Below the pieces are notes generated by a model. It was given only the letters and a program-made list of their open reading frames with translations, made no database searches and was not told the origin of the DNA. The position numbers were made by a program, and so were the translations under genes. From positions 2,356,001 to 2,420,000 of the forward strand of contig NC_019964.1 in assembly GCF_000328525.1 (NCBI RefSeq): a stretch of 64,000 nucleotides of DNA. Direction: 5' to 3'. Positions 37,725-62,987 of the stretch are shown piece by piece. The stretch comes from Halovivax ruber XH-70 (lineage in GTDB: Archaea; Halobacteriota; Halobacteria; Halobacteriales; Natrialbaceae). Every line of letters starts with the position of its first letter. Positions within the stretch are counted from its first letter, which is position 1.

Positions 37725-38780
37725 TTATCGATCGGCCAGGGTCCGGTAGCGCGGGACGCCCGACATGTCGGGACGATCCTGCGCCGGCATCGTCGAGTAC
37801 GTCGCGCGACCGAGCCCGCTCACCGACTGGCGGGTCCGGCCCGACGCTCCGCCACCGATCGACCGATCGCCGAGCGAACGTCCGTCGTCACCCATCCCGA
37901 GGAGACCCTCGTCTTCGTCGGTGTCGTCCGCAGTGGTACCGCCTTCGTCGCCCTCGCCATCGTGGTCCGCACCGTTCTCGTCACCGGCGCCCATCGACAC
38001 GTCGCTCAGGCGGGACCCAGCTTCGTCGACGAGACTCGCCGCCGTGTCCGCGAGTCCGCCGTCACCGCCCGACTCATCCACGTCACTCGCCTCGTCGCCT
38101 GACTCGCCGGCGTCACCCGTCTCGTCGTCGCTCTCCTCGGTATCGCTCCCCTCGCCGCTTGGCTCTCCGCCACCACCGATGCCGAGCACGTCGTCGAGAT
38201 CGGTTCGCACGTCGTCGAGCGCCTCCCTGAGGACGGCGGAAATCTCGTCGCCGTCAGCATCGTCCCCGGCGTCCGGCGTGGTCGGCGATTCCGTCGGATC
38301 CGATGGGGTTTCTGCGTCGGTGCGGTCTTCGTCTGTCGCCGTTTCGTCGGTCGTCGTTTCGCTGGCCGATTCGTCCAGCAGAAGGGGTGCCAGTGTCGTC
38401 ATCGCGTCTCGTTCCCCCTCGTCGAACGAGGGCTCGGCGTCTTCGTCGCCGGCCAGTCGTGAAAGCGTCAGTATCGCCCGGAGCGATGCCACGTCGTCCG
38501 GATCGCCGGCGAGGATCGCCGCCGGGATCGAGTCGGCGCCGTCCGGGCGATCGATATCGAGCGCCGCCAGGAGCACCGCCGGCTCGGTGTCTTCGAGCAG
38601 GGCGACCGCGTCCGATCCGAGCGCTCGAAGCGTGGTCCGCCCGGAGGCGGACATGACATCGGCCGGGTCGGGCTCGTCGCTTTCCCTGACCTCGTCCGGA
38701 AGCGCGGCCCTCGCCTCGTCGAGGAGCTTTCGTACCCGTTCGGCGACGTCGTCGATCGTGGACTGTGATGCGGTCGACAT
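37725..38780 (-). CDS. Acidic cluster protein D: helical N-domain, acidic linker, conserved-looking C-tail
   Basis: About 351 residues (358 if the in-frame ATG at 38801 is used). The N-terminal ~115 residues look alpha-helical and folded ('STIDDVAERVRKLLDEARAA', 'GRTTLRALGSDAVALLEDTE', 'AILTLSRLAGDEDAE'). Then come ~190 residues of Asp/Glu/Ser/Gly low complexity. The last ~35 residues turn basic and aromatic, with 'GLGRATYSTMPAQDRPDMSG' and 'VPRYRTLADR'. This tail could bind the partners or the product. It is the last gene of a four-gene minus-strand cluster and starts 18 bases after gene C's stop codon if the ATG at 38780 is used. Function unknown. Confidence 0.75.
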   Translation of the reverse strand: MSTASQSTIDDVAERVRKLLDEARAALPDEVRESDEPDPADVMSASGRTTLRALGSDAVALLEDTEPAVLLAALDIDRPDGADSIPAAILAGDPDDVASLRAILTLSRLAGDEDAEPSFDEGERDAMTTLAPLLLDESASETTTDETATDEDRTDAETPSDPTESPTTPDAGDDADGDEISAVLREALDDVRTDLDDVLGIGGGGEPSGEGSDTEESDDETGDAGESGDEASDVDESGGDGGLADTAASLVDEAGSRLSDVSMGAGDENGADHDGEGDEGGTTADDTDEDEGLLGMGDDGRSLGDRSIGGGASGRTRQSVSGLGRATYSTMPAQDRPDMSGVPRYRTLADR

Positions 38781-38797
38781 TGTCGCGTTCTGGTTCG

Positions 38798-39502
38798 TCA
38801 CTCCGATTCGTCGCCGTCGGTGACGGCGTCGACGATTCGACCGACCATCTCCTCGTGCGTGATGTTCGCGGTCACGCCGACGTCCTTCGCGATCGACTGG
38901 AGATCGCGGTAGGAGATAGACTGGAGGTAGGCTTCGAGGGTCTCTGTCTTGAGCGAGTCGAGGTCGTCGGCGTCGATCGACTCGGCGTCGGGTACCGACA
39001 CCTCGGACGCGTCGGCATCCTCCCCCGGCGCCGATTCGGATTCCGCGTCGTCCCCTGACGCCGGTTCGTCGTCCACGTCCTCGGGTTCGTCGCCGTCGGC
39101 CACATCGGCGTCCCCGCTCTCGCCACCGATGGCGTCGGTGATGGTCGAGCCGAGCCCGGCATCCCGCGCGGCGTCGACGACCGTGGCGAGTGCCGACCCG
39201 CGGTCTCGCGACTCGGAGAGGGCGTCCGACAGGCCGTCGCGGACCGCCGTCGCGAGATCGGCGAGAATGTCCCGCGGATCGGCCGACTCGTCGATGGTGT
39301 CGAGCGCCTCCTGGACGCGCCGGCCGATGGCCGCGCCGACCCGTCTACCGGCCGCCTCGCCGAGCCGGGCGCCGACCGCTCGCCCCACCTCCGCGGAGTC
39401 GACCTGCTCGCCCAGCGACTCGCCGCCGACGAGTCCGTCGATGTCGAGCTGGTTCGTCGCCTCCTCGACCACGACCTCCGTCATGGAATCGGTGTCACTC
39501 AT
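38798..39502 (-). CDS. Acidic cluster protein C: glycine-zipper-like domain plus SAP/Rho-N-like C-terminus
   Basis: A 234-residue acidic protein. Residues ~20-70 contain 'QLDIDGLVGGESLGEQVDSA' and 'VGARLGEAAGRRVGAAIGRR', a G-x3-G type zipper shared with protein B. Residues ~70-125 are helical ('DPRDILADLATAVRDGLSDA'). A ~45-residue acidic linker follows. The C-terminal ~50 residues ('SLKTETLEAYLQSISYRDLQ', then 'SIAKDVGVTANITHEEMVGR') resemble the helix-extended-helix pattern of SAP or Rho-N domains. Its ATG at 39502 is 24 bases after the B stop. Function unknown. Confidence 0.75.
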   Translation of the reverse strand: MSDTDSMTEVVVEEATNQLDIDGLVGGESLGEQVDSAEVGRAVGARLGEAAGRRVGAAIGRRVQEALDTIDESADPRDILADLATAVRDGLSDALSESRDRGSALATVVDAARDAGLGSTITDAIGGESGDADVADGDEPEDVDDEPASGDDAESESAPGEDADASEVSVPDAESIDADDLDSLKTETLEAYLQSISYRDLQSIAKDVGVTANITHEEMVGRIVDAVTDGDESE

Positions 39503-39526
39503 TGGAACCAGCGCTCGTTGCGACCG

Positions 39527-40006
39527 TCACGATTCGGCACTCGCGGCCTCCTCGGTCGATTCGTCGGAATCGGCTGCGGACTCCGACGCGGCGTCGTCGG
39601 TACTGTCCGAGTCGTCGGCAGCGTCCGCCGGTTCGTCGTCCGCCGAGTCGGTATCGCTCTCGTCCGCCGATTCGGAGTCGGCCTCGTCCGAGTCAGCTTC
39701 GCCGTCGCTTGCCTCCTCGGTGCTGTCCTCATCTCCGGCCGAGTCGGTGTCGTCCTCACCCTCGGCTTCCGTCCCGTCGCCGCCTGTGAGGAGGTCGTCG
39801 ACGACGAACGAGCCGATCGTCTGGCCAAGTATCGCCCCGATCCTGCGACCGGCCATCGCCCCGATCGCTCCGCCGAGGGCCTGTCCAAGAGGTTCGTCTC
39901 CGTCCAGCGAATCCTCCCACTGCGTGCCCTCGAGTAACTCCTCGATGTCGATGCTCCCCGTGATCTCGCCGTAATCGACCCGGTCGGTCAGGCTTCCGTC
40001 GCTCAT
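39527..40006 (-). CDS. Acidic cluster protein B: short glycine-zipper-like domain with acidic tail
   Basis: A 159-residue protein. The N-terminal ~75 residues are ordered: 'EITGSIDIEELLEGTQWEDS' and then 'LGQALGGAIGAMAGRRIGAI' with continued G-x3-G spacing to 'LGQTIGSFVVDDLLTGG'. The rest (~85 residues) is almost pure Asp/Glu/Ser/Ala/Thr. The zipper could pack against membrane or self-assemble; it is not long enough for certainty. The ATG overlaps the gene A stop by four bases. Paralogous to protein C in residues 15-70. Function unknown. Confidence 0.75.
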   Translation of the reverse strand: MSDGSLTDRVDYGEITGSIDIEELLEGTQWEDSLDGDEPLGQALGGAIGAMAGRRIGAILGQTIGSFVVDDLLTGGDGTEAEGEDDTDSAGDEDSTEEASDGEADSDEADSESADESDTDSADDEPADAADDSDSTDDAASESAADSDESTEEAASAES

Positions 40007-41331
40007 TGGGTTCCTCCGAAGTCGTCCGTTTCGTCGTCTTGTTGTCGTGCAGGCGATTGCAGCGTGGTCGGTCGTCCGTGGGCGGTCGTCTCAGCCTCAT
40101 CGATCGTCGCATCGCCGTCAGTCGTCCCACCACCGTCGGTCGGTGCATCACCCTCTGCCGTCCCGTTCGCCTCGGGAACCCAGCCGCCGTCGGCGGCCGC
40201 GGGTTCCGCTTCCTCGCCCTCGCTACCAGAGTCGCCGCCCCCGTCGCCCGTTCGCTGATCGACAGCTGCGACGAGGCGCTTCAGTCCGGTCTTGAGTGCC
40301 CACGAGAGTGCCTTCTCGACAGGGATCGAGGGCAGCAGACTCCCCACGGCAGACCGCAGTCGCGAGCCGATCGACCGAAGGAATCCGCCCTCGGACTCGT
40401 TTCCGTCCCCCTCGGCTTCCCCGGACTCCTCCCCGTCTCCCTCGGATTCGTCACCCGCATCTTCGGATTCTTGCTCGTCAGACGATTGCTCCGCGGAATC
40501 GTCTTCCGAGTCCGAGTCGGGTGCCGATTCACTCTCCTCGGACTCGTCGCCCTCGTCGTCTCCGGACCCGTCCTGACCGCCGACGAACGGAATCAGACCG
40601 ACGAGGCGTTTCTTCAGGCCGCCCAGTATCGAACTCGGCCTCAGTTTCCCCAGGGCGCTGCGAATCCCGGACAGCAGTCCGCCACCACCGCCGACCCCGT
40701 CCAGGAGACCGGCGACCTGCGAGAGGAGGTTGCCGAGCAGTCGCTGTTCACCTGGAACGGCGGAGATGTCGAGGTCGAGCTCGGGCAGGTGAATCTCGAG
40801 TCCGAGCAGGTTGACGTGGAGTCCTTCGAGCAGGACGTGGAGAACCGTCGCCGACCCCTCGGGTTCGTCACCCGCTTCCCTGATCGTGACCTCCTCGGCC
40901 GATTCGATCTCGACCGCCTCCATCTCGCCCGACTCGTCGCCCGCCCCAGACGACTCGGATTCCTCGTCCGTCGTCGACGACTCGGCGTTCTCACCGGTTG
41001 CTTCGGACTCGCTGTCCGCCGATGACTCGTCCGATCCCGCTTCGTCGGTCTCGGACTCCTGTTCACCCTCGCTCGATTCCTGCTCGCCGCTCCCTTCCTG
41101 CTCCTCGGCACTCCCCTCCGGTCCCTCGCCGCGCTCTTCTTGCTCCGCGCCGCCCGCCTGCTCGTCGTTCGCTTCCTCCTCGCTGGTGCTGTCTCCCTGC
41201 TCGCGTGCTGCGCTCGACGCGACGGCAAGCGCCGAGCGTTTCTCGCCGGACTCCGCCGCTCCGGCTTCGGCGGATTCCGTGTCCTGTGTTGCACCGGTCG
41301 ACTCCTGTTTCGCGTCAGATGACGGGGGCAT
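40003..41331 (-). CDS. Acidic cluster protein A: two hydrophobic segments in acidic low-complexity
   Basis: A 442-residue protein. Residues 1-160 are acidic and disordered (Glu, Ser, Asp, Gly, Ala). Residues ~163-213 hold a compact hydrophobic domain, 'LHVNLLGLEIHLPELDLDIS' and 'AVPGEQRLLGNLLSQVAGLL', of a kind I have seen in many haloarchaeal and bacterial proteins of unknown function. A basic amphipathic stretch to ~251 follows ('RPSSILGGLKKRLVGLIPFV'), then acidic sequence. A second amphipathic block has 'FLRSIGSRLRSAVGSLLPSI' and 'KALSWALKTGLKRLVAAVDQ'. The ATG at 41331 was chosen because upstream codon bias in this frame is poor. First gene of the four-gene cluster. Function unknown. Confidence 0.72.
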   Translation of the reverse strand: MPPSSDAKQESTGATQDTESAEAGAAESGEKRSALAVASSAAREQGDSTSEEEANDEQAGGAEQEERGEGPEGSAEEQEGSGEQESSEGEQESETDEAGSDESSADSESEATGENAESSTTDEESESSGAGDESGEMEAVEIESAEEVTIREAGDEPEGSATVLHVLLEGLHVNLLGLEIHLPELDLDISAVPGEQRLLGNLLSQVAGLLDGVGGGGGLLSGIRSALGKLRPSSILGGLKKRLVGLIPFVGGQDGSGDDEGDESEESESAPDSDSEDDSAEQSSDEQESEDAGDESEGDGEESGEAEGDGNESEGGFLRSIGSRLRSAVGSLLPSIPVEKALSWALKTGLKRLVAAVDQRTGDGGGDSGSEGEEAEPAAADGGWVPEANGTAEGDAPTDGGGTTDGDATIDEAETTAHGRPTTLQSPARQQDDETDDFGGTQ

Positions 41332-41506
41332 GCTCGAACCAGTAACAGTAAGACCAGCAGGTGGCCAGGTTCTTGGCCTTGCACGTGCTACTTTCGGGGT
41401 CCTGCCCGATTGCGAGACCGGCGATCGTGGCGACATCGATCGTTGGGGAAGTCGGGACCCTGTGGCGTTGACAGCCACCTGGGTTGGGAATAGAAAAACG
41501 GAACAC
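41315..41506 (-). CDS. Cys-containing small ORF before the acidic cluster
   Basis: A possible 63-residue protein starting with GTG at 41506 and ending 17 bases inside the gene A start. The last ~43 residues ('TIDVATIAGLAIGQDPES', then 'STCKAKNLATCWSYCYWF' and EHAPVI) show good third-position G/C bias, better than the competing frame that extends gene A. The Cys pattern is C-x7-C-x3-C with several aromatic residues. A TATA element at 41529-41535 would place transcription start close to 41506. Shorter starts are possible. No family is recognised. Confidence 0.4.
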   Translation of the reverse strand: MFRFSIPNPGGCQRHRVPTSPTIDVATIAGLAIGQDPESSTCKAKNLATCWSYCYWFEHAPVI

Positions 41507-41528
41507 GGCATCCGATCATAGATTCGAG

Positions 41529-41535
41529 TATATTT
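41529..41535 (-). promoter_or_regulatory. TATA-like element of the acidic cluster
   Basis: The minus strand reads AAATATA in an AT-rich context. A start about 25 bases downstream would fall near 41506, at the small Cys ORF and about 175 bases before gene A. Confidence 0.45.
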
Positions 41536-44287: not shown

Positions 44288-44977
44288 TCAGTGTTTCAAG
44301 TCGGGGTCGGGAGCATCGGGCGCCGCGTACTCCGCGGAGACGACCAGCGTATTTCCGATCAACGCCTGGTTCGCCCGCTGAAGGCGCTTCGAGAGCGACT
44401 GTTGCGTAATTCCGAGTTCGTCCGCGACGTCCGTGAGCGCCGCTTCCTTTGGTGTCTCGAAGTAGCCGGCCTCCCATGCTGCGACCAGCGCCTCCTGCTG
44501 TTTCGGTGTCAACCCATACTGACCACCGGTTTTCGGCTGCGATAGCTGGGTGAGTTGCTGCAGACTGAACGCGATCCGGTGTCTCTCACAGTAGTCCTGA
44601 AAGGCACCGAGCTGGTCGCGGTCGTCGAAGCGAATGCGAAGCTCCCACCGCTGGTCGGTCCCCGTTGCCTCCAGGATCACGGCCTCGATTTCGGTGTACG
44701 CGTACAGGACCGACTGGACCTGCGCCGTCCACTCCGCACGGTAGAGTGCCGAGTCGGCGAACTCGTCCAACTTCTTGATTTGCTGGATCGTTTGATCGTC
44801 ACGCGCTGCCGTCTCGAACGCACTGGGTGAGACGCCCGAAATCCAAAAGTACGGCGTCAGCACCTCGTCCGTGACCACGACGCGTTCGATCTCGATCGCC
44901 ATTTCCGGCACCGCCGTGAGCGTTTCGTGGAGGGCGAACGCCGATGACGGAACGTGGAATTTGCCGAAGATACTCAC
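44288..44977 (-). CDS. HTH-10 (bacterio-opsin activator-like) regulator
   Basis: A 229-residue transcriptional regulator. The N-terminal ~150 residues ('MSIFGKFHVPSSAFALHETL', 'VLTPYFWISGVSPSAFETAA') form the sensory module. The C-terminal HTH-10 begins 'YGLTPKQQEALVAAWEAGYF' and continues 'ETPKEAALTDVADELGITQQ', with the recognition-helix 'SLSKRLQRANQALIGNTL'. Full-length for the family. GC content is moderately lower than surrounding housekeeping genes. Targets are unknown; it may control itself and the downstream DUF7344-like gene. Confidence 0.88.
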   Translation of the reverse strand: MSIFGKFHVPSSAFALHETLTAVPEMAIEIERVVVTDEVLTPYFWISGVSPSAFETAARDDQTIQQIKKLDEFADSALYRAEWTAQVQSVLYAYTEIEAVILEATGTDQRWELRIRFDDRDQLGAFQDYCERHRIAFSLQQLTQLSQPKTGGQYGLTPKQQEALVAAWEAGYFETPKEAALTDVADELGITQQSLSKRLQRANQALIGNTLVVSAEYAAPDAPDPDLKH

Positions 44978-62294: not shown

Positions 62295-62987
62295 ATGAGT
62301 GTCCTCGCCGAGTTTACGGTGCCAGCGGACGACTTCGTGCTGGCGGAGACGCTGGCGGCGGCGCCGGAGATGACCATCGAGATCAAGCGAGTCGCAGCCG
62401 GAAAGACGCACGTAACGCCGTACTTCTGGGCCTCTGGCGGCAACTTTCGCGTGTTCGACGACGCGCTTCGCGACGACGAGATGGTGCTCGAAGTGTTGAC
62501 GCTCGAAGAACACGACGACACGGACCAGCTGGCTCAGGACGTCGAAGAGCGCTTCTACCGCGTCGTCTGGGAGGCCGACGTGCCGAACCTCATTCAGGGT
62601 GTCGCAGCCGTCAAAGCGACGGTGCTAGACGCCGTGACGAGCGAAACCGGTCGCGAGTGGGAGGTGAAGGTGCTGTTTCCCGACGAGTCGGCGCTCTCGA
62701 CGTTCAACGAGTACAGTCTCGAACACGATCTCACGTACGAGGCGCGGCGGCTCTACCGACCGGAGAAGCCGGCCGATACGGCCGAGTTCGACGTGACCGA
62801 TGCACAGCAGGAAGCGCTGGAGGCTGCCTATCACGGCGGGTACTTCGCTATTCCGCGCGATCAGACGCTGACGGAGCTGGCGGACTCGCTCAATATCTCC
62901 CGGAACGCACTCTCGGCGCGGCTCCGTCGGGGCCACCGGAACCTCCTCGAACAAACGATCATCCACGACGGATCGGGGGACACATAA
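62295..62987 (+). CDS. HTH-10 (bacterio-opsin activator-like) regulator
   Basis: A 230-residue regulator of the same family as the one starting at 44977. 'MSVLAEFTVPADDFVLAETL' and 'VTPYFWASGGNFRVFDDALR' begin it. The C-terminal HTH is 'EFDVTDAQQEALEAAYHGGY', 'FAIPRDQTLTELADSLNISR' and 'NALSARLRRGHRNLLEQTI'. The ATG at 62295 was chosen because it aligns exactly with both relatives; an in-frame GTG at 62274 would add seven residues. Effectors and targets are unknown. Confidence 0.88.
   Translation: MSVLAEFTVPADDFVLAETLAAAPEMTIEIKRVAAGKTHVTPYFWASGGNFRVFDDALRDDEMVLEVLTLEEHDDTDQLAQDVEERFYRVVWEADVPNLIQGVAAVKATVLDAVTSETGREWEVKVLFPDESALSTFNEYSLEHDLTYEARRLYRPEKPADTAEFDVTDAQQEALEAAYHGGYFAIPRDQTLTELADSLNISRNALSARLRRGHRNLLEQTIIHDGSGDT

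Follow-up and report, generated by a model that had tools for sequence, protein, structure and literature searches.

Reviews count 14 gvp genes in haloarchaea, and GvpC-less gvp clusters that occur without vesicles in many of these organisms are left unexplained there (PMC4390858). For Halopiger, Haladaptatus, Natrinema, Natrialba and Natronobacterium, vac regions lacking gvpC and gvpDE were described and vesicles were not visible (PMC4390858), while a later table enters gvpC for the same species (PMC9501494, Table 1). GvpI is an accessory, non-essential protein, the loss of which leads to longer vesicles (PMC9501494). It is small and basic and is encoded between gvpH and gvpJ, whereas the haloarchaeal GvpC, the acidic outer coat protein, is the product of a single gene and carries PF05465 repeats. 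In bacterial gvp clusters, small glycine-zipper proteins of the YtxH/GvpP type accompany the gas-vesicle genes. Here we describe four genes of Halovivax ruber, A to D, which we propose, with a probability of about 0.62, to form an accessory operon, not recognised before, for the gas vesicles of haloarchaea in lineages with GvpC-less gvp clusters.

The four genes run on the minus strand from position 41331 to 37725 of the window, the 64,000-nt stretch of the 3.22-Mb genome that was analysed (G000:C1:2356001-2420000). Gene A (40003-41331, minus strand) encodes 442 AA, with long acidic arms and amphipathic segments around a 53-residue core that consists of a hairpin and then a helix and contains an LLGNLL motif (40696-40854, minus strand; G000:C1:2396696-2396851). 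Its start at 41331 (MPPSSD...) is retained among Halovivax relatives, and 41331-41535 is upstream sequence. The 159-AA product of gene B (39527-40006, minus strand) has an N-terminal glycine-zipper domain and an acidic tail. Gene C (38798-39502, minus strand; 234 AA) combines a glycine-zipper helix (residues 36-69), an acidic linker and a C-terminal three-helix domain (residues 178-232; 38807-38971, minus strand), predicted at high confidence and possibly Rho-N/SAP-like. Gene D (37725-38780, minus strand; 351 AA), for which an alternative GTG start is possible at 38801, has a helical N-terminal domain, an acidic middle and a basic, STMP-type tail (37728-37838, minus strand) that is conserved among relatives. 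The intergenic gaps A/B, B/C and C/D are -4, 24 and 17 bases; an earlier note, made from the sequence alone, had given the first two correctly and the third as 18. Its description of the proteins as extremely acidic was borne out, as the four highest Asp+Glu fractions (0.34, 0.27, 0.27 and 0.26; median 0.18) among the 52 genes in the window that encode 150 AA or more are those of this cluster. The glycine-zipper repeats and the basic tail of D that it had pointed out are also real. In C, none of the glycines G44, G48, G52, G56 and G60 varies across 33 relatives, and profile comparison identified the N-terminal zipper domains of B and C as paralogous (Prob 97.5, E 6e-12).

None of the four proteins matched a Pfam or NCBIfam family above the cut-off, in agreement with the earlier view of the cluster as unrecognised. 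B and C, which as glycine-zipper proteins accompanying gas-vesicle genes may be comparable to the YtxH/GvpP type, did not reach the cut-off of any Pfam glycine-zipper or YtxH family either. PDB sequence searches with A-D returned nothing usable; in plasmid records A was unmatched and D matched only entries titled 'hypothetical protein'. We found no description of A-D in the literature, most subscription papers being outside the search, and an earlier description is possible. AlphaFold2 modelled the zipper of C as one long helix and predicted its C-terminal domain well. This tail partly overlays the Rho N-terminal domain (5jjl) over 46 residues with a Z score of 5.8, a value common in helical folds, and Pfam Rho_N matched it weakly in one of 33 relatives (E 0.022). 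These two weak resemblances lend slight support to the possible SAP/Rho-N-like domain that the earlier note had read in the tail of C. For A the AlphaFold2 model was of low confidence (mean pLDDT 57), and fold searches with it gave nothing reliable. A resemblance between the hairpin of A (LLGLE) and that of GvpA (LVGIE) was considered but found no support in profile comparison (Prob 0.2).

The 53-residue core of A also occurs in unnamed LLGNLLC proteins of bacteria and haloarchaea, in which it belongs to no Pfam family (L131:4013-4561, L134:4587-5156, L127:1071-1787 and L128:205-861). These have signal-like N-termini and a Cys pair, whereas A has Ser in place of Cys, long acidic arms and no signal. 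A may therefore be an intracellular form of these proteins that has lost the cysteines.

Within Natrialbaceae, C is present in 109 of 125 genomes and in 26 of 29 genera. Neighbourhoods of up to 16 kb were taken from 29 C-positive genomes, and C was recovered by the gene finder in 28 of them (25 genera). In all 28 the acidic gene with the A core, B, C and D have the same order and strand, with varying flanking genes, so that the four same-strand genes are a conserved operon and the families do occur together, which the earlier note had proposed to check. In one genome (G065, L177:8932-9198) B, C and D are intact; A there looks broken or mis-sequenced, as its called reading frame has only 88 AA.

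We surveyed 292 genomes of the class, counting a PF00741 match as gvp-positive and a match to the A core as A-positive. PF00741 was found in 119/292 genomes and the A core in 95/292, and every A-positive genome (95/95) was also PF00741-positive; the genomes surveyed are kin, so the counts are not independent and Fisher values overstate the significance. Outside Natrialbaceae the same was true of 31/31 A-positive genomes, against a base rate of 52/218; the A match of one genome, G311, is weak and may be a secreted form. A control gene that is a frequent neighbour of A-D (presumably DUF3209-like) revealed no such link, as 17 of the 93 genomes carrying it outside Natrialbaceae were gvp-positive vs. 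the base rate of 52/218. Among Natrialbaceae, all 65 genomes examined with C carry gvp genes, these are absent from seven of nine sampled genomes without C, and C and gvp genes have been lost jointly in several genera. In Halovivax ruber some 440 kb separates the operon from the gvp cluster, which lies outside the window and whose gvpA, O, F, G, J, K, L and M were confirmed by Pfam.

Scanning with the A core led to loci of other haloarchaeal families in which A stands among genes bearing gas-vesicle motifs. In 16 of the 31 A-positive genomes outside Natrialbaceae, A is at most about 6 kb away from a PF00741 gene, and A-D or A-B are part of the gvp cluster or adjoin it. Two Natrialbaceae, Natronosalvus hydrolyticus and a related MAG, have the arrangement gvpA-gvpO-A-B-C-D, all co-directional and divergent from gvpF onwards. 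Some of the Haladaptatus copies are plasmid-borne. As the sets outside Natrialbaceae often comprise just A and zipper proteins, the core may not include C and D. At L150:10243-11091, a divergent gene on the opposite strand with the D-type paired STMP motif adjoins an unlinked A-zipper pair, an arrangement indicating that D can be separated and inverted.

A protein of 230-380 AA, here called X, is encoded between gvpG or gvpH and gvpJ in GvpC-less clusters. X, which in the Halovivax ruber gvp cluster is at L142:10475-11317 (outside the window), has no Pfam match and is a long GvpI homologue with an extra N-terminal domain. Profile comparison of X with GvpI of GvpC-type clusters gave Prob 99.1 and E 6e-19, and D aligned with X over its full length with Prob 99.4 and E 2.4e-21, both E values being those of single comparisons. 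Column-shuffled D vs. X gave nothing; nor was any match obtained when A, B and C were compared with the GvpA, J, K, L, N and O profiles. The direct comparison of GvpI with D was weak (Prob 49). The paired tail motif (...STMP... / ...RTL...) is common to the three, being found in 26/28 D, 36/53 X and 4/4 GvpI proteins and in 15 of 1925 others, most of which look like further D/X relatives. By these profile alignments D is homologous to X and, through X, probably to GvpI. It differs from GvpI in being long and acidic overall, and it is X, not D, that occupies the gvpI position, D being encoded outside the gvp cluster in Natrialbaceae.

The promoter regions point in the same direction, more weakly. 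The pattern CTTGC-N4-GC, of which one copy (CTTGCACGTGC) lies upstream of A at 41378-41388 with no strand assigned, is present in 27/29 promoters of A and 18/21 promoters of gvpA in Natrialbaceae vs. 3.9% of 1402 other upstream regions; its distance to the start is mostly 40-48 bases for A and 52-60 bases for gvpA. It was first chosen by eye; when all conserved patterns were compared among 16 groups of promoters, in 120 pairs and with gvpA represented twice, it was the sole pattern common to A and gvpA. Outside Natrialbaceae, neither conservation nor concerted change of the element was clear. The shared element suggests, with less support than the gene-content data, that A-D and gvpA may be co-regulated.

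A-D resemble GvpC in being acidic accessory proteins tied to gvpA, and in two genomes, where they follow gvpA-gvpO in the same direction, they stand near the usual place of gvpC(-gvpN). They differ in that they are four genes, mostly unlinked from gvp in Natrialbaceae, and in that PF05465 repeats are found neither in A-D nor elsewhere in the Halovivax ruber genome. By phyletic distribution the two are mutually exclusive: GvpC of the repeat type (multi-repeat PF05465) occurs in 11 genomes, all of which are gvp-positive (11/11) and none A-positive (0/11). In 21 Natrialbaceae clusters GvpC was found in 0/21; what comes after gvpA is gvpN, gvpO or nothing that was recognised as a gene. These cluster sequences side with the 2015 text (PMC4390858) where it conflicts with PMC9501494 on gvpC in the Natrialba, Halopiger and Natrinema vac regions. 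GvpN was considered as the gene replaced by A-D and rejected, as most A-positive Natrialbaceae retain it. An unrooted GvpF tree unites the four GvpC-type clusters whose gvpF was readable in a single clade (support 99/83) among the A-D-type clusters. In G013, a further Natrialbaceae genome, gvpA precedes a GvpC-like gene and A-D are absent. Its GvpC-type gvp cluster (L162:10184-11434) falls in the GvpC clade, and this grouping together with the absence of A-D suggests that the cluster was replaced by transfer. Roughly twelve gvp-positive genomes lack both A and PF05465, G065 with its shortened A among them, so A-D would be dispensable for some GvpC-less clusters.

The 95/95 co-occurrence, the gvp linkage outside Natrialbaceae, the homology of D and the shared promoter element together tie A-D to gas vesicles. 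As for their role, we infer a part in coating, shaping or assembling the GvpA shell, and the location, amounts and effect of the proteins are inferred likewise. The products of A-D would sit on the GvpA shell or help to build it, and would do the work done elsewhere by GvpC in stiffness, shape and length. D could be a GvpI-type factor for assembly or length, B and C may oligomerise by their glycine-zipper helices, and A might dock by means of its hairpin core together with its amphipathic helices. The acidic arms would keep the coat soluble in molar salt. Against the accessory-operon reading stand the gvp-positive genomes with neither A nor PF05465 and the sets outside Natrialbaceae that are reduced to A and zipper proteins. 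In addition, D is the only one of the four with detectable homology to a Gvp protein, and species with GvpC-less vac regions were reported as vesicle-negative (PMC4390858), so that the vesicle role is a predicted one. If A-D are the missing parts, a cloned gvp cluster from a GvpC-less species is short of four genes, and the puzzle of GvpC-less clusters without vesicles becomes directly testable by co-expression. The gas vesicle is a known organelle, to which A-D, if the tie is true, would add a new set of shell-associated proteins. It is possible, but in our opinion doubtful, that A-D go further and form a complete GvpC-independent coat and assembly system, commoner in haloarchaea than GvpC, the vesicle type having been overlooked because of wrong conditions or small particles.

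A-D could also be linked to gas vesicles through biogenesis, regulation or inheritance and not through the coat. D and X would then be GvpI-type factors, and the Rho-N/SAP-like domain of C would bind nucleic acid, in control of gvp expression or in positioning of vesicles. The relation of D to X and GvpI fits this, since GvpI is accessory and its loss lengthens vesicles (PMC9501494), as does the resemblance of the C tail to the Rho N-terminal domain. That resemblance, however, is weak and of a kind common among helical folds, and the exclusion with the coat protein GvpC points to a role in coat or shape. We therefore consider this alternative unlikely, although it survives better than those that follow. 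It is improbable that the Gvp proteins and A-D build a structure for a purpose other than buoyancy in species that are mostly vesicle-negative, such as very small or non-gas-filled shells. GvpC-less species without visible vesicles (PMC4390858) in which both loci are retained across 25 genera would speak for it, yet the essential gvp genes are all intact in the clusters examined, which fits ordinary vesicles made under untried conditions.

The earlier note had read the cluster as parts of a scaffold, condensate or membrane-associated assembly that could be a new structure, and a third alternative is accordingly a stand-alone scaffold or condensate with no tie to known systems. The note's view that the genes belong to a structure and not to a pathway agrees with a conserved, structural multi-protein set, and the want of a family match and the acidic low-complexity arms would suit a stand-alone structure as well. 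A stand-alone structure is nevertheless disfavoured by the linkage of A-D to gvp genes, with which they strictly co-occur, and by the homology of D to a gvp-encoded protein, and we regard it as very improbable. The note had named membership of one gene in a known, unrelated system as counting against it; the known system that was found, gas vesicles, belongs to the operon as a whole. Passive joint transfer of A-D and gvp genes on mobile regions, with no common function, is hardly credible. Both are patchy and some Haladaptatus copies are on plasmids, which would favour it, but the loci are far apart in Halovivax ruber and nevertheless lost jointly in several lineages, the control neighbour gene has no gvp link, and D has a common ancestry with a gvp-encoded protein.

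Two further observations were made along the way. In three clusters that have neither A nor GvpC, a different small acidic, glycine-zipper-like protein is encoded directly after gvpM (L165:6632-7042, L167:12246-12659 and L168:6877-7287). In the window itself, the genes at 44288-44902, 62295-62987 and 1-261 belong to one family and have, by eye, the look of bat/HTH_10-type regulators.
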